Positions 41,654 to 62,614 of a stretch of 64,000 nt of DNA are shown here, piece by piece. Source of the stretch: Nitrospira sp. (GTDB lineage Bacteria > Nitrospirota > Nitrospiria > Nitrospirales > Nitrospiraceae); contig JAHFEW010000001.1 of NCBI GenBank assembly GCA_023248215.1, forward strand, positions 62,001-126,000, read 5' to 3'. The notes below the pieces were generated by a model, which was not told the DNA's origin, searched no databases, and was given only the letters and a program-made list of their open reading frames with translations. The first letter of the stretch is position 1; every line of letters starts with the position of its first letter. The position numbers and the translations under genes are program-made.

Positions 41654-41753
41654 CTTAGACAGGCCTCAAAAAAACTATGTGGACAGGCTCACACTTCGTT
41701 TGGCCTGCACGATGCGAGAACGCGGCTGGCGGACTTTTTCAGCATCCTGTTAG
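41654..41753 (-). repeat. Degenerate copy (D) of the long palindromic element, at the aroG stop
   Basis: On the minus strand the arm reads TAACAGGATGCTGAAAAAGT, followed by GCGTTCTCGC; the opposite arm near 41654-41677 is degenerate but keeps CAGG and an A-run. The arm start supplies the TAA stop of the DAHP synthase (41752-41750). The shared GCGTTCTCG motif links it to the copies at 45847, 56281 and 62473. Its inner part has decayed. Confidence 0.5.
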
Positions 41754-42808
41754 ACAGGACGTGTGGTAAGGGAGTCGGCCATCCCATAGAGCAGGGCTTC
41801 GGTATCGCTCCAGTTCAGGCAGGAATCGGTGATCGACATGCCGTACGTGAGGGCTTTTCCGGGGTCCCAGGTTTGCCGACCGCCTTGCAAGTGGCTTTCG
41901 AGCATGAGGCCCATGATCGAGCGGCGGCCGTCCTGAAATTGTTTGAGCACTTCGCCGGCGACTTCGACCTGGCGTTGGTGGTTCTTTCCTGAATTGTCAT
42001 GCGAGCAATCCACCATGACGCCGCGTGCGAGGCCTTCATTCGCAACGGCTACTTCCGCGCGGGCAATGTCTTCGACACCGTAGTTGGTGCGTCCGCCGCC
42101 GCCGCGCAGAACAATGTGATGGTCCGGATTGCCGGTGGTCTTGATAATGGACGTGATGCCATCGGCATTCACGCCGACAAAATGGTGCGGGCTACGGCTG
42201 GTGATCATGGCATTGACCGCGACTTGCAGGCTGCCTTCGGTCCCATTCTTAAATCCGACCGGCATCGAGAGGCCGCTGGCCATTTCGCGATGGATCTGAC
42301 TTTCGGTGGTTCGTGCACCGATGGCGGTCCAACTCAGCAGGTCGGCGATGTATTGAGGCGTCACCGGGTCGAGCAGTTCCGTCGCGCAGGGGAGGCCTTT
42401 CCCATTGATGTTCAAGAGAATGGTACGGGCCAGTTGGATGCCCTGGGCAATGTCGCAGGTGCCGTCGAGATGAGGGTCGTTGATCAACCCCTTCCAGCCT
42501 ACGGTGGTCCGGGGTTTTTCAAAGTAGGTGCGCATCACGACCAGGAGTTTCTCGCGGACTGCCTCGGCAACCGGCCTGAGCCGATCGGCATACTCATAGG
42601 CCGCGTCGGGATCGTGAATCGAGCAGGGGCCGACGATCACAATGAGCCGTTCCATATCACGGCCATGCAAGATATTCCGGATAGCTTGTCGCGTCTGAAA
42701 CACGAGCTCGGCCACCTCGTCGGTGATGGGCAGACGCGTCTTCACGTCGCGCGGTGAGGGGAGCGGCTTGATTTCAATGACGTGCTGATTATCGATCGGC
42801 CTGGTCAT
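41750..42808 (-). CDS. aroG: 3-deoxy-7-phosphoheptulonate synthase (class I, AroG/AroF type)
   Basis: 352 residues from ATG 42808, preceded by AAAGGA; the open frame to 42865 adds an unrelated extension. VIVGPCSIHDPDAAYEYADR, RTYFEKPRTTVGWKGLINDP, GFKNGTEGSLQVAVNAM and MVDCSHDNSGK are hallmarks of class I DAHP synthase. It condenses PEP and erythrose-4-P, the first step of the shikimate pathway. Which aromatic amino acid inhibits it cannot be read with certainty. Its stop lies in the arm of a palindromic element. Confidence 0.94.
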   Translation of the reverse strand: MTRPIDNQHVIEIKPLPSPRDVKTRLPITDEVAELVFQTRQAIRNILHGRDMERLIVIVGPCSIHDPDAAYEYADRLRPVAEAVREKLLVVMRTYFEKPRTTVGWKGLINDPHLDGTCDIAQGIQLARTILLNINGKGLPCATELLDPVTPQYIADLLSWTAIGARTTESQIHREMASGLSMPVGFKNGTEGSLQVAVNAMITSRSPHHFVGVNADGITSIIKTTGNPDHHIVLRGGGGRTNYGVEDIARAEVAVANEGLARGVMVDCSHDNSGKNHQRQVEVAGEVLKQFQDGRRSIMGLMLESHLQGGRQTWDPGKALTYGMSITDSCLNWSDTEALLYGMADSLTTRPV

Positions 42809-43399: not shown

Positions 43400-45844
43400 A
43401 TGGTCTTGTCGGTCAGAACAGTGTGTCATCTGTGTGTCGGATTTGTCCTGGGCGCAAGCACGCTCGGGGTTGCGCATGTGCACGCGCAGGAATCTGCGAT
43501 GCCGGTGAGCAAGGCGCGCACGATTGCGGGAACGGTTCAGAATCAGGATCTCCGGCGTGTTCCTCAGGCGAGGGTAGAGGTGAAGGATCAGGAAGGGACC
43601 ATGGTCGGGTCGGCGGTGGCGAACGAGGCCGGAGAATTTACCGTGGATATCCTGGACGAGGGAACCTATTCCGTGAGCGCGGTGCTGGATACCAATCGAA
43701 GCGAATATGCGATCATCAAAGTCGGCGCCGAGCCGCCCGCCCCGGTCACGCTCACGCTCTCGAAGACCAACGAGATCGCACTCGAAGTCGTATCCTCGTT
43801 GCCGGCCATTCAGTACAAGGCGTCGAGCGAAACCTATGCGCTCAGCCGGAAGGAAATCGAGACCCTGCCGCGCGGGAACAACAACGATCTCCATGATGTG
43901 CTCATCACGATTCCGAGCGCCGTCTACGGCTCGCTCAAGCAGGTCCATATTCGCCAGGACCATGCGAATTTGCAATTGCGGATCGACGGCGTGCCGATTC
44001 CGGACACCGTCTCGTCCACGTTTTCCGATGTGATCAGCCCGCGTGCCTGGGAACGGGCGGATATCATCCTCGGCGGCATGGAAGCCCAATATGGCAACAA
44101 GGCGGCGGCCGTGTTGGATATCACGACGAAGAGCGGGACCAAGCCGTCCTTCGGATCAGCCCAGATGATGGGGGGATCGAATCAGACGATCAATCCGTCC
44201 TTTGAGTACGGCGGCACGATCGGCGAAAAGTTTCGGTTTTATATCTTGAACAGCTACATGAGCACGAATCGCGGGATCGAGCCGCCGACCCTGGGGCACT
44301 CGATCTTCCATGGGCAGAGCGAGCGGAACCAGACCTTTATCCGCGGCGACTATCAGCATGACAACAAGAACAACTTCACCTGGCTGTTCTTGAACTCGGT
44401 GGCCAAGTATCAAATTCCCACGACACCCGGCATCGAAGTGGATCCAAGCGGGCAGATGCTGCCGTTGCTTCAGGCGAGTCAGCCGGGATTCACACCCGTG
44501 GCCTCGCAGGCGATCAATGAATTTCAGAAAGAGAACAATCAATACGGACACATGGTGTGGCGGCATGATGTGAATGCGAATAACTTTTTCAGCCTGGCAG
44601 GATATTTCCGCCATACGCGGGCGACGTTTAAAACGGACCCGCTCAATGTGCTGGCCTACACGGCCGACCCGTCCGAGCCGTTTTCGGCGTCGGATCAGGA
44701 TCGCAACGCCTATTCGACCGGCCTGCGTTTCGATTACACCTACGTGCATAGCAAGCAGCATCTCATCAAAGCGGGGTTCCAGATCGACCGGACCCAGGCC
44801 GTCAACAAGACGCGACTCTTTACCTTTGCGGACGACGGAGCGGGAAATCCCACCGGAGACCTGCTCAGTCTCAATGCCGACAACCGCCAGATCGGTTATC
44901 GCCAGGAGTTCTGGATCCAGGACCAGTGGAGTCCGAACGATCAGTGGACCTTCAACCTCGGTCTGCGGGGCGATGCCGTGCAGTATTTGTGGAACGAAGG
45001 GCAGGTGAGTCCGCGTGTCGGGGCGACGTACAAGTACAACCCTGCGAACGTCTTCCATGTGTTTTACGGCCGGATGTTCACGCCGCCGAATCTGGAAGCG
45101 ATCTCTTTCGCGAAGCTGAACACGATCGGGACAAGCGCTCAGCCGGAGGACACGACCAACAATACGGTCCGGGCCGAACGGGCGCATTACTTCGAGGTCG
45201 GCAGCTACCATGCCCTGAATCGCTACGCGACGTTGCAATTTACCGGCTGGTATAAGCTGAGCAACTTCCTGTCCGACGCCGGACAGTTCGGCACCACGCC
45301 GTTGTTGAACTATTTTGCCTTTGAGCGCGGTTGGCAGCGAGGCATCGACGGAGCGTTGAAACTGCAACTGGCCGAAAATCTGACGGCACGCGGCAATGTG
45401 GCTTGGGGGCAATGTAAGGGTTACGGCCTGCAGTCGGGCCATTTCCTCTTGGATGCCAAGGAACTCTCGGACATCAACTCACAGGGCGGCGTGTTCTGCG
45501 ATCACATGCAGACATTGACGAGTTCGGCGATCGTGAGTTATCGACTCCTGGAGCGTACGACGTTTACGGGGCAGATGCTCTTCGCCTCTGGTTTGCGCAC
45601 CGCAGAAAACGAAGAGGCCAAGACCAATTCCAGCCACAGCCCCTCGTACACCATTTACAATCTGTCGATCGCGCATGTCTTCCCGTTGCCCTGGGAAGGA
45701 CAGAAGTTTCTGCTGGGATTCGACATCATCAATTTGTTGGACCAGAAGTATTTCATCAACCAGGGTGAAGGCAGTATCGGGTTGGGTGTGGCTCATGCGG
45801 GGATGCCGAGGTCGTTCTTCCTCCGAGGCCAGTGGTTCTTCTAA
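43400..45844 (+). CDS. TonB-dependent outer-membrane receptor
   Basis: 814 residues from ATG 43400, which has GGGGAGG five bases upstream. A signal peptide covers about 1-30. Residues about 38-115 form a carboxypeptidase-regulatory-like domain (TIAGTVQNQDLRRVPQARVE), then the plug with PRGNNNDLHDVLITIPSAVYG and VHIRQDHANLQLRIDGVPIP. The rest is beta-barrel, ending with the aromatic residues QWFF required for outer-membrane insertion. Substrate is unknown; the His-rich neighbour hints at a metal or metal chelate. A palindromic element begins 3 nt after the stop. Confidence 0.9.
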   Translation: MVLSVRTVCHLCVGFVLGASTLGVAHVHAQESAMPVSKARTIAGTVQNQDLRRVPQARVEVKDQEGTMVGSAVANEAGEFTVDILDEGTYSVSAVLDTNRSEYAIIKVGAEPPAPVTLTLSKTNEIALEVVSSLPAIQYKASSETYALSRKEIETLPRGNNNDLHDVLITIPSAVYGSLKQVHIRQDHANLQLRIDGVPIPDTVSSTFSDVISPRAWERADIILGGMEAQYGNKAAAVLDITTKSGTKPSFGSAQMMGGSNQTINPSFEYGGTIGEKFRFYILNSYMSTNRGIEPPTLGHSIFHGQSERNQTFIRGDYQHDNKNNFTWLFLNSVAKYQIPTTPGIEVDPSGQMLPLLQASQPGFTPVASQAINEFQKENNQYGHMVWRHDVNANNFFSLAGYFRHTRATFKTDPLNVLAYTADPSEPFSASDQDRNAYSTGLRFDYTYVHSKQHLIKAGFQIDRTQAVNKTRLFTFADDGAGNPTGDLLSLNADNRQIGYRQEFWIQDQWSPNDQWTFNLGLRGDAVQYLWNEGQVSPRVGATYKYNPANVFHVFYGRMFTPPNLEAISFAKLNTIGTSAQPEDTTNNTVRAERAHYFEVGSYHALNRYATLQFTGWYKLSNFLSDAGQFGTTPLLNYFAFERGWQRGIDGALKLQLAENLTARGNVAWGQCKGYGLQSGHFLLDAKELSDINSQGGVFCDHMQTLTSSAIVSYRLLERTTFTGQMLFASGLRTAENEEAKTNSSHSPSYTIYNLSIAHVFPLPWEGQKFLLGFDIINLLDQKYFINQGEGSIGLGVAHAGMPRSFFLRGQWFF

Positions 45845-45846
45845 CC

Positions 45847-45967
45847 GGATGCTGAAACGGGCCACCAACTTCGTTCTCGGCTCCACAACATCCTCAACGT
45901 AGCACGAGGCTACGCCTCCGGTGTTGTGGTCGCCTGCGGCCTGGTTGGATGGCCCGTTTGAGCATCC
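45847..45967 (+). repeat. Long palindromic element, copy A
   Basis: The outer arms GGATGCT (45847-45853) and AGCATCC (45961-45967) continue inward as GAAACGGGCCA and TGGCCCGTTT. A separate inner stem CCACAACA/TGTTGTGG and an innermost CGTAGC-ACGAG-GCTACG hairpin make a nested structure. Shared motifs: CGTTCTCGG at 45872, TACGCCTC at 45911, CCTGCGGCCT at 45933. It starts 3 nt after the receptor stop. Confidence 0.8.
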
Positions 45968-45987
45968 GTTCTGTGATGAGATAGGAT

Positions 45988-53387: not shown

Positions 53388-54254
53388 TTAATTTTTCTTT
53401 GAACGAAGTCGCTCTGAGAGCACCGGGTATTGAGCCGATCCCATCCCGAAATTTCCGTTTGCGGCGTCTGCCGCGATGACGCGTAGCGTGATGCCGTCCG
53501 GCGCGTCCTTGGAGATCGGCACGAAGAAGGGCGCCTCGAAACGGCTTTTCTCTCCCGCATAGAACATTTGCAGACGCTCGACTACGCGGTCTCCGATCAG
53601 CAGTTCGCCATAGATGTGAATCTTCCGGGAATCCCAGTCGCTATGGGGGCGGACCAGCGAACCGGAGAGGGTGCGCACGGAAGCCCGTAGCATGACGTCT
53701 TCCTTGGCGATCAGGGACTCGCCCGGTTTCGGATGCTCAACTTGGACTAGATATCCATAGAGCTGCAGCACGATACCGTCGTTGGCCAGGTCGTGACCGG
53801 GAATGAGCAGGACCGTCTTGCTGGCACGTTGCAAGGCGTTGGGATAGGCCAAGGGGCCTTCAGCGGCAATCTCCACGAGCGTCGGGCGTGCGAGTTCGAG
53901 TGTGGTCGTGAAGGAGGCCGCCGGTCGTCCGCTATAGACCGGTTCCTCCATGAGATGCGGTGTGCGCATGATCTGGCTTTGGTCGCCAGGTTCTCCCTGT
54001 TGCAGGCCGGACGCCAGGAGTTGTCCGGTCGCCAGGTCGGTGATCGTCACGCGAGCGCCGCCGACCTCGTGGCCCAAGACCAACGAGCGATGAGCGACGA
54101 CGCGCACGACGATGGTGGTGGGCAGGGGATCGTTATAATGGGCTTTGGTTTCGAGTTCGGATTCGGACGGTTCCGGGACAAACGCCGCGCCCGCACTGCC
54201 CAGCAGCACGAGGAGGCAGGTGCCGATCAGCCGGGTGAAGAACGAGCGAGTCAT
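53388..54254 (-). CDS. Hypothetical secreted protein
   Basis: 288 residues. The signal peptide is clear (LIGTCLLVLLGSAGAAF). The mature part is predicted mainly beta-strand, with TTIVVRVVAHRSLVLGHEVG and ARVTITDLATGQLL, suggestive of an immunoglobulin-like or carbohydrate-binding-like fold, but no family is recognised. The start ATG overlaps the metG stop (ATGA), so it is translated with metG. The C-terminus is basic and Ser-rich. Confidence 0.65.
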   Translation of the reverse strand: MTRSFFTRLIGTCLLVLLGSAGAAFVPEPSESELETKAHYNDPLPTTIVVRVVAHRSLVLGHEVGGARVTITDLATGQLLASGLQQGEPGDQSQIMRTPHLMEEPVYSGRPAASFTTTLELARPTLVEIAAEGPLAYPNALQRASKTVLLIPGHDLANDGIVLQLYGYLVQVEHPKPGESLIAKEDVMLRASVRTLSGSLVRPHSDWDSRKIHIYGELLIGDRVVERLQMFYAGEKSRFEAPFFVPISKDAPDGITLRVIAADAANGNFGMGSAQYPVLSERLRSKKN

Positions 54255-56239
54255 TTCACTTTGGTGCCGGGCTCCACATCTTCCAGCAGGGTCATGAGGC
54301 CACGCACCTCGCTGTCGCCTGCCGCGAGGACCATGCCTTGGGATTCGATGCCCATCAACTTCGCAGGTTTTAGATTCGCCACAATGACGATCGTTTTGCC
54401 GATCAAAGCCTCCGGCTCATATTTCTTCCCGATCCCGGCGACAATCTGTCGTTGTTCGCTACCGAGGCTGACTTGAAGTTTGAGCAGCTTCTCGGATTTC
54501 GGCACGCGCTCTGCCGTCAAGACCTTCGCCGTCTTGAGCTGGACCTTCATGAACTCGTCGATGGTGATCTGCGCGGGCGACGCAGCGGCCGGGGCGGCTG
54601 CAGCAGAAGCTGGGCTCTGTGGTGCAGCGGTGGCTGCGGTCGGCGCGGCGGCAGTTGGTTGCGAGGAAGCAGGGGAGTCACTCACGTTTTTGGCTCCTTG
54701 TGGTTTGGATTCGATGCGGGGGAACAGCGGCGTGCCTTTGTTCACTTCCGTGCCTGGTGGAATGTGCCCCCACGGCGGTGCCCCATCTCTATCCGGTTCC
54801 GCAGTAGTAAGGCCAAGCTGATCCATGATCTCCTTGGCAGCATTCGGCATCAATGGAGCGAGGTGATAGGCAAGGTGTCGTAATGTTTCTGCAACTCGAT
54901 AGAGCACCTGCTCAAGTCTGGTTCTGTGGGCTTGTTCCTTGGCAAGTTTCCAAGGTTGCTGAGATTCAATGTATTGGTCAGCGGTCTGAATGACATTCCA
55001 AATGGATTCTAAAACGCGATTAAATTGGAGGCTCGGCAGCAATTCTTCGATCTGCTGTGCCGATTCTCTGACTGCGTTCTCCAAGGTGTTTTCATGCTCC
55101 TCGAAGCCCGAGTGGGACGGTGGAATCTTGCCCCCGCAATATCGCTCGATCATGGTCACGGTCCGGCTTAACAGGTTGCCCAGACCGTTCGCCAGGTCGC
55201 TGTTGATACGGCCGATCATGGCCTCGCGTGAAAAATCCCCGTCCTGTCCGAACGGCACTTCGCGCAGTAGGAAGTAGCGGAAGGCATCCGCGCCGAACTG
55301 ATCCACCATCTTGTTGGGATCGACGACGTTTCCGCGACTCTTGGACATCTTCTCGCCGTCGACCGTCCACCAGCCATGCGCGAAAATCGTTTTCGGAAGT
55401 TTGAGTTCCAGCGCCATCAACATCGTAGACCAATAGACCGCATGGGTCGTGAGGATGTCCTTGCCGACGAGGTGGACATCGGCGGGCCAGAACCGATCCA
55501 GTCCCGTTTTGTATTCGAGAGCGGAGACGTAATTCACCAGCGCATCGAACCAGACATAGGTGACGTAGTCTTTGTCGAACGGCAGCTCGATGCCCCAGGA
55601 GAGTCGGGATTTTGGACGAGAGATCGAGAGGTCTCCAAGCTTCTGAGTCTGCAGGAATCCCAGGACTTCATTGCGGCGTGAGTCGGGTCGGATAAAGTCT
55701 TCATGGTTTCGGATGTGGTCGATTAGTCGATCCTGGTATTGCCCCATCTTGAAAAAGTAGTTGTGCTCGCTGAGTCGTTCTATGGGGCGCTTGCAGTCGG
55801 GACAAAGGCCATCAACGACATCTTTCTCCGTCCAGAACCGTTCGTCAAACGTGCAATACCATCCTGTATAGTCTGCCTTATAAATCAGCTTGTTATCGAA
55901 CAGTTGTTGAAGGTATCGTCGAACCACACTTTGGTGTTGCCTATCGGTGGTTCTGATGAAGGCGTCATTGGAAATGTTCAACCGTTCCCAGAGGTTTGTG
56001 AATTGCGGCGCGAGTCGGTCGCAATGGGCTTGCGGGTCGATGCCGGCCTTCGAGGCAGCCTGCTGCACTTTTTGCCCGTGCTCATCCAAGCCCGTCAAAA
56101 AGAACACCTCGCGCCCACGTAATCGCCAGTAGCGCGCGAGCACGTCGGCTGCCACGGTCGTATAGGCATGACCGATGTGCGGCACGTCGTTGACGTAATA
56201 GATCGGCGTGGTGATGTAGAAGGTGTCGGAGTTGCTCAT
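54251..56239 (-). CDS. metG: Methionyl-tRNA synthetase
   Basis: 662 residues. ITTPIYYVNDVPHIGHAYTT supplies the HIGH motif, GEKMSKSRGNVVDP the KMSKS motif. A CPDCKRP half zinc site appears near 145. An Ala/Pro-rich linker (about 525-550) joins the anticodon-binding part to a C-terminal EMAP/OB-fold tRNA-binding domain (VQLKTAKVLTAERVPKSEKL). It charges tRNA-Met. A palindromic element lies upstream, between this gene and holB. Confidence 0.96.
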   Translation of the reverse strand: MSNSDTFYITTPIYYVNDVPHIGHAYTTVAADVLARYWRLRGREVFFLTGLDEHGQKVQQAASKAGIDPQAHCDRLAPQFTNLWERLNISNDAFIRTTDRQHQSVVRRYLQQLFDNKLIYKADYTGWYCTFDERFWTEKDVVDGLCPDCKRPIERLSEHNYFFKMGQYQDRLIDHIRNHEDFIRPDSRRNEVLGFLQTQKLGDLSISRPKSRLSWGIELPFDKDYVTYVWFDALVNYVSALEYKTGLDRFWPADVHLVGKDILTTHAVYWSTMLMALELKLPKTIFAHGWWTVDGEKMSKSRGNVVDPNKMVDQFGADAFRYFLLREVPFGQDGDFSREAMIGRINSDLANGLGNLLSRTVTMIERYCGGKIPPSHSGFEEHENTLENAVRESAQQIEELLPSLQFNRVLESIWNVIQTADQYIESQQPWKLAKEQAHRTRLEQVLYRVAETLRHLAYHLAPLMPNAAKEIMDQLGLTTAEPDRDGAPPWGHIPPGTEVNKGTPLFPRIESKPQGAKNVSDSPASSQPTAAAPTAATAAPQSPASAAAAPAAASPAQITIDEFMKVQLKTAKVLTAERVPKSEKLLKLQVSLGSEQRQIVAGIGKKYEPEALIGKTIVIVANLKPAKLMGIESQGMVLAAGDSEVRGLMTLLEDVEPGTKVK

Positions 56240-56280: not shown

Positions 56281-56411
56281 TAGCAGGCTGTTGATAAAGG
56301 CCGCCAGTGGCGTTCTCGGTCGCACAACTCCCTGCGACGTACCCAGAGGGTACGCCTCAGTCGTCGTGCTTCCTGCGGCCTTGCTGGACGGCCTTTCTGA
56401 ACAGCCTGCTA
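56281..56411 (+). repeat. Long palindromic element, copy B
   Basis: Outer arms TAGCAGGCTGTT and AACAGCCTGCTA, then AAAGGCCG/CGGCCTTT after a 3-nt mismatch. The centre is CGTACCC-AGA-GGGTACG (56338-56354). Shared motifs: CGTTCTCGG at 56311, GGGTACGCCTC at 56348, CCTGCGGCCT at 56372. It stands 21 nt after the holB stop (reading minus) and before metG, so the motif order is opposite to both flanking genes. Confidence 0.85.
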
Positions 56412-56432: not shown

Positions 56433-57464
56433 CTATGGTGACGCGTCGGCGGTGTTCTGCGGTGCGAGTAGATGTCGGACACGCAACAAGATGGTTTCGA
56501 GCGCCATCTGAAGATTCACGTTGCGATGGGCCTGTCGTTCCAACTTTTCGAGATCGCTGATCAGATCCAAGAGTTCGTCGATGTCGATGCGTTCGGCCAG
56601 CGCTTGCATGGCTGTTCGTTGGTCTATATTGAGCACGTGATCCGAGCCGGCGCCGACGGCCAGCAGGAGCACATCGCGCAACCATCGGAGCAGCCAGTCG
56701 AATGCCTCCAGGCCGCGGTCCGCTTTCGCCAGGGCCTCTGCGGTGGTGAGGACGGTGGAGAAGGAGTGCAGCCCCTTCGCTGAAAAAATGACGGAGAACT
56801 CCTTCTGGCTGTTCCGTGCCTGTTCCAGGTTGCACTCCAGCGCTCGCCCCAATTCCCCATCACTCAGCACCGCCAAAAAATGCGCATCGGCCGGCGGGAG
56901 CTCCCGTTTCAAGATGACGGCGGCTTCTACTTGGGTCTGCGCGGGTGTCGTGAGCCGTAAGGCTTGGCATCGGGACCGGATCGTGGCCGGCAGGGCGTAG
57001 GGTCTACTCGAGACCAGCACAAACAGACTGTGGTCGGGCGGTTCTTCCAGTGTTTTGAGCAGCGCATTGGCGGCGCCGATGGTCATGCGATCCGCGTCGT
57101 CGATCAAGCAGATCTTGCGATCGCCGATCAGCGGGCGATAGATCATCTGATGCTCGATGTCACGAATCAGTTCGATCTTGATCTGAGGATTGGCTTGCTC
57201 GCGATCCGGCTCGATCACCATAAAATCGGGATGGGTTCGCGCCTCAACCTGACGACAGGCTCGGCAGGCGCCGCAGGCCTCCGGTTCCTGATCGTCCGAC
57301 GGAGTTTCGCAGAGCAGCGCTTGCGCCAGGCGCAAGGCCAGGAGGCGTTTACCGATCCGATCGTCGCCATGGAAGAGATAGGCATGGGCGAGACGGTTCT
57401 GCACGATCGCCGACCTGAGCAGCGCTTTGGCACTGTCATGTCCGATGATATCAGCGAAGGGCAT
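56433..57464 (-). CDS. holB: DNA polymerase III delta prime subunit
   Basis: 343 residues. IIGHDSAKALLRSAIVQNRL, HAYLFHGDDRIGKRLLALRL (P-loop-like), the zinc module CGACRACRQVEARTHPD, ICLIDDADRMTIGAANALLK and LEEPPDHSLFVLVSSRPYAL are typical clamp-loader features. It loads the beta sliding clamp together with delta, tau and gamma. It overlaps the end of tmk by 14 bases, a common neighbour pair. Confidence 0.93.
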   Translation of the reverse strand: MPFADIIGHDSAKALLRSAIVQNRLAHAYLFHGDDRIGKRLLALRLAQALLCETPSDDQEPEACGACRACRQVEARTHPDFMVIEPDREQANPQIKIELIRDIEHQMIYRPLIGDRKICLIDDADRMTIGAANALLKTLEEPPDHSLFVLVSSRPYALPATIRSRCQALRLTTPAQTQVEAAVILKRELPPADAHFLAVLSDGELGRALECNLEQARNSQKEFSVIFSAKGLHSFSTVLTTAEALAKADRGLEAFDWLLRWLRDVLLLAVGAGSDHVLNIDQRTAMQALAERIDIDELLDLISDLEKLERQAHRNVNLQMALETILLRVRHLLAPQNTADASP

Positions 57465-60637: not shown

Positions 60638-62470
60638 ATGTGTGGCATCGTTGGCTACGTGGGCAATCAAGACGCGGTTCCAATCTTGTTGAACGGGCTG
60701 TCGAAGCTGGAATACCGGGGTTATGACTCAGCCGGTGTGGCGATCCAGCAGGGAGAAAAAATCGAGATTCGCCGGAGTGTCGGCAAATTGATCAATCTCC
60801 AAAAATCGCTGGCCCAAAAAAACATTGCGGGGACTTGCGGGATCGGACATACGCGCTGGGCGACGCACGGCAAGCCCTCCGAGCAGAATGCGCATCCGCA
60901 TCGCTCCGAGAGCTGCGTTCTCGTGCATAACGGGATTATCGAAAACTATGTGGAGCTCAAACAGCGGCTGAGCAAAGACGGCTACAAGTTTCAGTCCGAA
61001 ACCGACACCGAGGTGGTCGCCCATTTAATCGACAAATATATGAAGAAGGGTGGCCTTCATCTTGCCGATGCGGTGCGCGCGACGGCCAAGGAGATTCGCG
61101 GGAGTTATGCCATCGCGGTGATTTCTGAGCGTGAGCCCGGTTTGCTGGTGGCTGCCCGATCCGGTTGCCCGTTGGTGATCGGCCGGACTGCTGAAGCGGC
61201 CTTTGTCGGGTCTGATGTCATGGCCATGCTGTCCCACACGCGGGAGGTGACGTTTCTTGAAGAGGGAGACATCGTCGAGGTGACGGCGGGAGAGAGCACA
61301 TTTACAGATCTCGACGGGCGGGCGGTGAAGCGCAAAAAGACTACGGTGACGTGGGACGCGTCCGCCGCCGAGAAAAGCGGCTATCCCCACTTCATGTTGA
61401 AGGAAATTCATGAACAGCCGCAGACGATCCTGGATACCATCCGGGGACGTTATTCCTATGAGAGCGGCGAGGCTGATCTGCCGGACATCGGGCTGACGCC
61501 GAAGCAGTTCGCCGAGGTCGGCCAAATTTGGATCGTGGCCTGCGGAACGAGTTGGCATGCGGGGTTGGTCGGAAAGTATCTTCTCGAAGAGATGGTCCGA
61601 ACGCCGGTGCAAGTCGATATCGGCAGCGAGTTTCGGTATCGCGATCCGCTGGTTGAAAAAAACGACCTGTTCATCACCATTTCGCAGTCGGGGGAAACCG
61701 CCGACACCTTGGCCGCAGCCCGTGAAGCGAAACAAAAGGGCGCGCGCGTCGTGTCGATCGTGAATGTCGTGGGCAGCACCCTGGCGCGCGAGTCCGATGG
61801 CGTGTTGTATACGCACTGCGGGCCCGAGATCGGAGTGGCCTCGACCAAAGCATTCACCAGTCAGCTGGCGGCCTTGTATCTGCTGGCTCTGCATTTGGGG
61901 CGTGTGCGGGGCGTGCTCAGTGTTGCAGACGGGAAAGCCTGGCTGGACCGTCTCGTCACGCTGCCGGCTTTGGTGAAACATGTGCTCGGACGGGAGGCGG
62001 AGATTCTGGCGATTGCCAAGCGTTATTACAAGAAACCGGATTTCTTGTACCTGGCGCGCGGGATCAACTATCCGATCGCGCTCGAGGGTGCGCTCAAGCT
62101 CAAGGAGATTTCCTACATCCATGCGGAAGGGTATGCCGCGGGGGAAATGAAGCATGGGCCGATCGCGCTCATCGATAAGGACATGCCGGTGGTGGTGCTG
62201 GCGCCTCGGGATCGCTTGTATGAAAAGACGGTCAGCAACCTCATGGAGGTGAAGGCGCGCCGAGCCCCGGTGATTGCGTTCGTGGCGGAAGGGGAGCGCG
62301 AATTGGGCAATATCGCTGATGCGGTGTTTACGATTCCCGACGTACATCCGCTGCTATCGCCTATTCTCTTTACGATCCCGCTGCAGTTACTGGCGTATCA
62401 CATTGCGGTGCTGCGCGGAGAAGATGTGGATCAACCGCGCAACCTGGCGAAGAGTGTGACGGTGGAGTAG
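60638..62470 (+). CDS. glmS: Glucosamine--fructose-6-phosphate aminotransferase (isomerizing)
   Basis: 610 residues. Cys2 of MCGIVGYVG is the glutaminase nucleophile; GIGHTRWATHGKPS is the glutaminase core. Two SIS sugar-isomerase domains follow from about 285, with CGTSWHAGLVGKYLLEE, SQSGETADTLAA, and LKLKEISYIHAEGYAAGEMK. The C-terminus NLAKSVTVE is canonical. It makes glucosamine-6-P, the precursor for the GlmU reaction. A palindromic element begins 3 nt after its stop. Confidence 0.96.
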   Translation: MCGIVGYVGNQDAVPILLNGLSKLEYRGYDSAGVAIQQGEKIEIRRSVGKLINLQKSLAQKNIAGTCGIGHTRWATHGKPSEQNAHPHRSESCVLVHNGIIENYVELKQRLSKDGYKFQSETDTEVVAHLIDKYMKKGGLHLADAVRATAKEIRGSYAIAVISEREPGLLVAARSGCPLVIGRTAEAAFVGSDVMAMLSHTREVTFLEEGDIVEVTAGESTFTDLDGRAVKRKKTTVTWDASAAEKSGYPHFMLKEIHEQPQTILDTIRGRYSYESGEADLPDIGLTPKQFAEVGQIWIVACGTSWHAGLVGKYLLEEMVRTPVQVDIGSEFRYRDPLVEKNDLFITISQSGETADTLAAAREAKQKGARVVSIVNVVGSTLARESDGVLYTHCGPEIGVASTKAFTSQLAALYLLALHLGRVRGVLSVADGKAWLDRLVTLPALVKHVLGREAEILAIAKRYYKKPDFLYLARGINYPIALEGALKLKEISYIHAEGYAAGEMKHGPIALIDKDMPVVVLAPRDRLYEKTVSNLMEVKARRAPVIAFVAEGERELGNIADAVFTIPDVHPLLSPILFTIPLQLLAYHIAVLRGEDVDQPRNLAKSVTVE

Positions 62471-62472
62471 TT

Positions 62473-62593
62473 GGATGTTGAAAATGGCTTCCAACTGCGT
62501 TCTCGGTCGCTCAGCATCCTGCGACGTACCCCAGAGGGTACGCCTCGTCGCTGAGCTTCCTGCGGCCTTGCTGGAAGACCATTTTGAACATCC
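62473..62593 (+). repeat. Long palindromic element, copy C
   Basis: GGATGTT at 62473 and AACATCC at 62587 begin arms that extend inward as GAAAATGGCTTCCA and TGGAAGACCATTTT. The centre is CGTACCC-CAGA-GGGTACG (62525-62542), with a GCTCAGC/GCTGAGC stem around it. Shared motifs: CGTTCTCGG at 62498, GGGTACGCCTC at 62536, CCTGCGGCCT at 62559. It starts 3 nt after glmS and ends 22 nt before gatC. Confidence 0.85.
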
Positions 62594-62614
62594 TCAAAGA
62601 AACGAGAGAGTGTG

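Follow-up and report, generated by a model that had tools for sequence, protein, structure and literature searches.

The long nested palindromes at gene 3' ends in this Nitrospira DNA are best read, at a probability of roughly 0.7, as part of a MITE-like, non-autonomous superfamily of the Nitrospiraceae with a left-end hairpin that inserts at stop codons and sense-oriented copies that are retained there. The original prediction had held that these units go beyond a simple terminator and that they could be mobile elements, and both suggestions are supported; the expected many copies, their location at 3' ends and compensatory changes in their arms were all seen. No published account of the repeat family was found in the open-access papers searched. 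Nitrospira are central nitrifiers; if the reading is true, many of their gene 3' ends bear transposon-derived hairpins on the stop codon, and the dozens of sites per genome, present in one species and absent from another, are a natural experiment on what a structure at the stop codon does to the termination of translation, to mRNA decay and to the retention of transposons. It would also mean that REP-like palindromes can spread without a RAYT.

Copies in the window

The window (the whole stretch of 64,000 nucleotides analysed) holds three full copies, all on the + strand. The first, at 45844-45970 (125 bits; supported by its fold, the covariance model and an orthologous site), starts on the TAA stop (45842-45844) of a gene for an outer-membrane protein of 814 aa (43400-45844, +). 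Its outer arms, 45844-45861 and 45953-45970, pair with a G.G opposition at position 11 and enclose inner stems and the hairpin CGTAGC/GCTACG, and the sequence has the fixed motifs CGTTCTCGG (45872-45880, +) and CCTGCGGCCT (45933-45942, +) on the left and right sides of the inner loop. The second copy, 56283-56409 (131 bits), lies between metG (54251-56239, -) and holB (56433-57464, -), antisense to both, with CTAG on its left flank and CTAT on its right. The third, 62470-62596 (117 bits), is upstream of gatC and starts on the TAG stop (62468-62470) of glmS (60638-62470, +). All three carry CGTTCTCGG, ACGCCTC and CCTGCGGCCT in the same order together with the nested stems, and all three fold as DNA far better than their dinucleotide shuffles (z -8.0, -5.3 and -6.1).

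Four units had been described as sharing this architecture. The three full copies do, whereas the unit placed at 41654 is a different and shorter element, a complete 91-bp MITE of the same superfamily at 41659-41749 (-), which scores 14.5 bits in the covariance model. Its left arm is CAGGATGCTGAAAAAGTCCGCCAGCCGCGTTCTCG and its right end ATAGTTTTTTTGAGGCCTGT; it shares with the full copies only the left arm plus GCGTTCTCG, and ACGCCTC and CCTGCGGCCT are absent from it. It is bounded by the target duplication CTAA, on the left at 41750-41753 (-), which includes the TAA stop of a DAHP-synthase-like gene (41750-42808, -), and on the right at 41655-41658 (-). The relative Nitrospira sp. MGR_bin213 (L309) has the empty site with a single CTAA, as GTCTAA. 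The copy named at 45847-45967 is real, with true limits of 45844-45970, and the statement that each unit starts within 25 bp of a stop is exact at 45844 (TAA), 62470 (TAG) and 41750 (TAA) but fails at 56283, where the right end, not the left, is 23 nt away from the stop of holB.

Abundance and distribution

Further copies had been expected in the genome and its relatives, and a covariance model made from eight of the copies, with rough E-values, recovers them in abundance: at least 107 in the window's genome, where exact pattern matching gives nine and the reversed pattern zero. Other genomes of the genus hold 37 to at least 85 copies in 23 of 24 cases, the exception being G004 with two, and in a phylum-wide sample copies are present in 22/22 other genomes of the family, while matches outside the Nitrospiraceae are few or weak. 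Nearly all Nitrospiraceae tested have from 10 to more than 80.

Copies also form same-strand runs at gene ends, 0.4-3 kb apart, and head-to-tail arrays of two or three diverged members. Tandem duplication is an unlikely origin for these arrays because adjoining copies are strongly diverged. In being long imperfect palindromes that follow genes in same-strand runs, the copies resemble the attC sites that end integron cassettes, but the element has no conserved RYYYAAC/GTTRRRY ends, its copies are dispersed and are conserved next to housekeeping genes, and an integron integrase scores above cut-off in only 4/41 genomes, so that most carriers have none. As a general explanation attC is thereby refuted, and I give it next to no weight. 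The window's genome has integron-type integrase genes at C181:4650-5621 and C149:3352-4290, one of them broken by a stop codon.

Subfamilies and target duplications

Reading 96 copies of the window's genome with their flanks separates two subfamilies, family A with the core TCTCGC..GCTGCGG and family B, to which the three full window copies belong, with TCTCGG..CCTGCGG. The family A unit is about 206 bp long and consists of the 126-bp nested palindrome at the left end, a 60-nt spacer and, at the right end, a third copy of the terminal repeat, GTTTTTCCGCAGCCTG, in the layout YTAR, CAGGATGCGG...palindrome...spacer...GTTTTTCCGCAGCCTG, YTAR. This third arm, in most cases 57-61 nt beyond the palindrome, occurs in 38/96 copies, nearly all of family A (37 with a clear TCTCGC) and none of family B. 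About twenty copies of family A are almost identical and share the 206-bp limits; their flanks are unrelated. The tetranucleotides on the two sides match as CTAG/CTAG in 20 copies, CTAA/CTAA in four and TTAG/TTAG in one, and are unequal in a minority; the left-right association of CTAA is significant (Fisher p 0.002).

Matched 4-bp duplications are the trace of a DDE transposase, whereas single-stranded Y1 transposition leaves none. The matched YTAR of family A, together with the single CTAA at the empty counterpart of 41659-41749, is the target duplication of a MITE. Both elements have terminal inverted repeats of that class (CAGGATGCGGAAAAA / TTTTTCCGCAGCCTG), and at 206 and 91 bp both are non-coding and within its 70-300 bp. 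In these respects, in being intergenic and in their plausible effect on neighbouring transcripts they resemble bacterial MITEs such as RUP/IS630-Spn1, Correia/NEMIS, ERIC and MITEAba12. They differ in the nested 126-bp palindrome, the fixed asymmetric core at the left end, the third repeat 60 nt further on and the very strong preference for stop codons in the sense direction, and in that no parent IS was found. IS5-type elements also target YTAR and duplicate 4 bp; the likeness of family A to them lies in target and duplication length, and an IS5-type transposase bearing these ends did not turn up.

Family B lacks a right-hand YTAR in nearly all copies, but its left end follows TA far above background. 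Its mobility is inferred from the shared architecture and the TA flank, for it has neither a third arm nor a clear right-hand duplication. On the preferred reading, a cut-and-paste (DDE) transposase acting in trans would move family A. Since YTAR is contained in the stops TAG and TAA, a forward insertion would place the hairpin immediately after the stop codon and restore the stop. Family A copies without a right end, and family B with its window copies, would then be older insertions that kept the palindrome and lost the rest.

These duplications also bear on the suggestion that the units are REP/BIME elements handled by a RAYT (TnpA_REP, an HUH Y1 transposase), with YTAR/TAG standing for GTAG and the G.G for the irregularity of a REP stem. 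The likeness is real in that both are high-copy extragenic palindromes at gene 3' ends, with a TAG-containing tetranucleotide directly 5' of an imperfect hairpin and, in the element, the G.G in 126/138 copies; GTAG REPs, too, often give flanking ORFs their TAG stop (PMC3733652), and the window's genome has five Y1_Tnp genes. Against this, a REP is limited to GTAG (or CGTC) 5' of a 5-13 bp stem in a unit of 20-40 bp (PMC3733652), far below the 126 bp and 17-bp outer arms of the element, which mostly follows CTAG/YTAR, and REP arrays are inverted where those of the element run head-to-tail. Y1_Tnp (PF01797) is absent from G002, G003, G005, G009, G011, G013, G020 and G024, which carry 37-84 copies and one of which is a single 4.2-Mb contig, and a RAYT search over 41 genomes gave no association with the element. 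No element pairs flank the Y1 genes of the window's genome, and an element-like piece 250 nt past the Y1 gene of L011 is unrelated to the hairpin of that gene. With eight carriers free of Y1_Tnp, YTAR in place of GTAG and matched duplications in family A, which argue against Y1 transposition, this part of the original prediction is not supported, and spread by a RAYT is very improbable.

Search for a transposase

A search of all loci read for pairs of the terminal repeat yielded neither an autonomous copy nor a transposase bearing these ends. In the window's genome, a 199-contig assembly from which insertion sequences may have been lost, a DDE_Tnp_1 search for a parent IS turned up a single broken gene that lacks these ends; nor did four scans of viral contigs reveal a parent IS bearing them, and a plasmid scan gave no match. 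The terminal repeat itself does occur on viral contigs, where it bounds a MITE of about 117 bp (L339 2743-2861) and lies near the end of a phage-integrase-like gene (L338 10045-10064), and so the parent transposase probably ranges beyond Nitrospira. A longer MITE of about 320 bp with the same terminal repeats was also seen (L146 1197-1518, L160 1200-1518, L174 1183-1518 and L175 1501-1819).

Stop codons and orientation

Gene ends were taken from a simple codon-usage ORF caller. In the window's genome 42/96 copies start no more than 3 nt from the end of a sense gene. The tie to gene ends holds when counted in an external set, the 60 top-scoring copies from other genomes, mostly of other genera of the family: the left end is at a same-strand stop in 35/60, against 5.1 expected if copies were spread evenly over their own gaps, and a single copy abuts a stop in reverse sense (35:1). 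The 35 stops comprise 23 TAG, six TAA and six TGA, whereas the commonest stop of called genes on the window's contig is TGA. External copies away from stops also have the TA flank (14/25, against a background of 3.2%), and TA therefore belongs to the left end as such.

Of the 162 non-coding YTAR sites, 37 are stop codons, and many landings on stops are thus to be expected, but not their orientation: a symmetric YTAR predicts both orientations equally, so that retention or an orientation bias has to be added to explain 35:1. Copies without the third arm are at stops in 32/58 cases and those with it in 10/38 (p 0.006), an excess which suggests retention there. Sense copies on stops may have been kept because they are harmless in that position or because they are useful as gene-end structures.

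Pairing of the arms

The arms had been said to differ between copies yet stay complementary through compensatory change, and this is seen both across copies and among orthologs of the glmS site. Over 64 copies, in an alignment fitted to the model, 22/30 pairs have double-sided changes and covariation is 0.274, where shuffles give 0.090 and slid controls no more than 0.069. In an independent alignment of 11 glmS orthologs six pairs changed on both sides, which means that the changes arose in place, and covariation in the glmS-gatC gap is 0.120; shuffles give 0.065 +- 0.008, and slid controls reach 0.031 at most. Among non-Watson-Crick pairs, however, G.U is no commoner than A.C (45 vs 54 over 134 copies; 6 vs 12 cells in the orthologs). 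Selection on sense RNA should favour G.U, and the pairing constraint thus looks like one that acts at the level of DNA.

One way to such a pattern is template switching in replication, in which one arm of the quasi-palindrome is corrected against the other and complementarity needs no selection. Changes from one Watson-Crick pair to another, transversions included, with few wobble intermediates, are what it would produce, and position 11 is paired in 9/138 distinct copies. The G.G opposition nonetheless survives at that position in 126/138, where correction would erase it; its retention argues against simple arm-to-arm copying and may point to recognition by a protein. I therefore regard template switching as a possible but rather unlikely source of the complementarity as a whole. 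Within the preferred reading, the pairing would be kept by recognition of the inverted arms or by arm-to-arm correction, and not by folding of the sense RNA alone.

The orthologs also bear on whether the units are intrinsic, bidirectional terminators with an A-tract, a GC-rich hairpin and a U-tract. Many copies do have GAAAAA...CTTTTTG around a GC-rich inner stem. In orthologs, though, CCATTTTGAAC has become CCATGTTGATC with matching changes on the opposite side, so that the T run is broken while the pairing is kept, and the closed outer stem is not followed by a U run. A terminator is thus very improbable.

Histories of individual sites

At the outer-membrane gene (the 45844 site) an intact element sits on the stop in some species, with the right halves of one or two earlier copies behind it, and the newest copy, at the few sites where this can be seen, thus tends to adjoin the stop. 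A bolder version of the transposon reading would have the element actively target sense-oriented stops, for example where transcription or translation exposes the target, so that new copies stack between the stop and older ones and gene ends are rebuilt from transposon hairpins across a bacterial family. I hold this to be decidedly unlikely.

Behind glmS (the 62470-62596 site) the element is present in most Nitrospira compared, and in several others an unrelated nested palindrome follows a TGA stop at exactly this place, as though a long hairpin were of use there. Together with the 35:1 sense orientation, the compensatory changes at the conserved glmS copy and the precedent of E. coli, where REPs no more than 15 nt from a stop stall ribosomes (PMC12306157), this favours a conserved RNA at transcript 3' ends, acting as an exonuclease barrier or in stalling at the stop, with mobility secondary or ancient. 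About 40% or more of the copies, however, do not occupy a sense stop, Rfam 15 gives no match at the gathering or a relaxed threshold, and the counts of G.U and A.C offer no support. The original prediction of an RNA that protects transcript ends hence keeps some standing, but as the main account it is unlikely.

The glmS-gatC elements of L227 and L228 have about 100 nt extra in the apical loop, starting GTAAGAGGTAGAACGGGACTACTGG and alike in the two species, for which Rfam has no match. The unrelated palindrome that several species have behind glmS in place of the element belongs to a second family, seen at L234 2072-2165 in the glmS-gatC gap of G004, which combines a near-invariant 48-nt core, GTGCTCGCGCAACGCGCGGCCTCGGAAGGCCCTCGTTGGACGCGCGCAG, with variable self-complementary arms and is present in 4-30 copies in each of 29 genomes of the genus.
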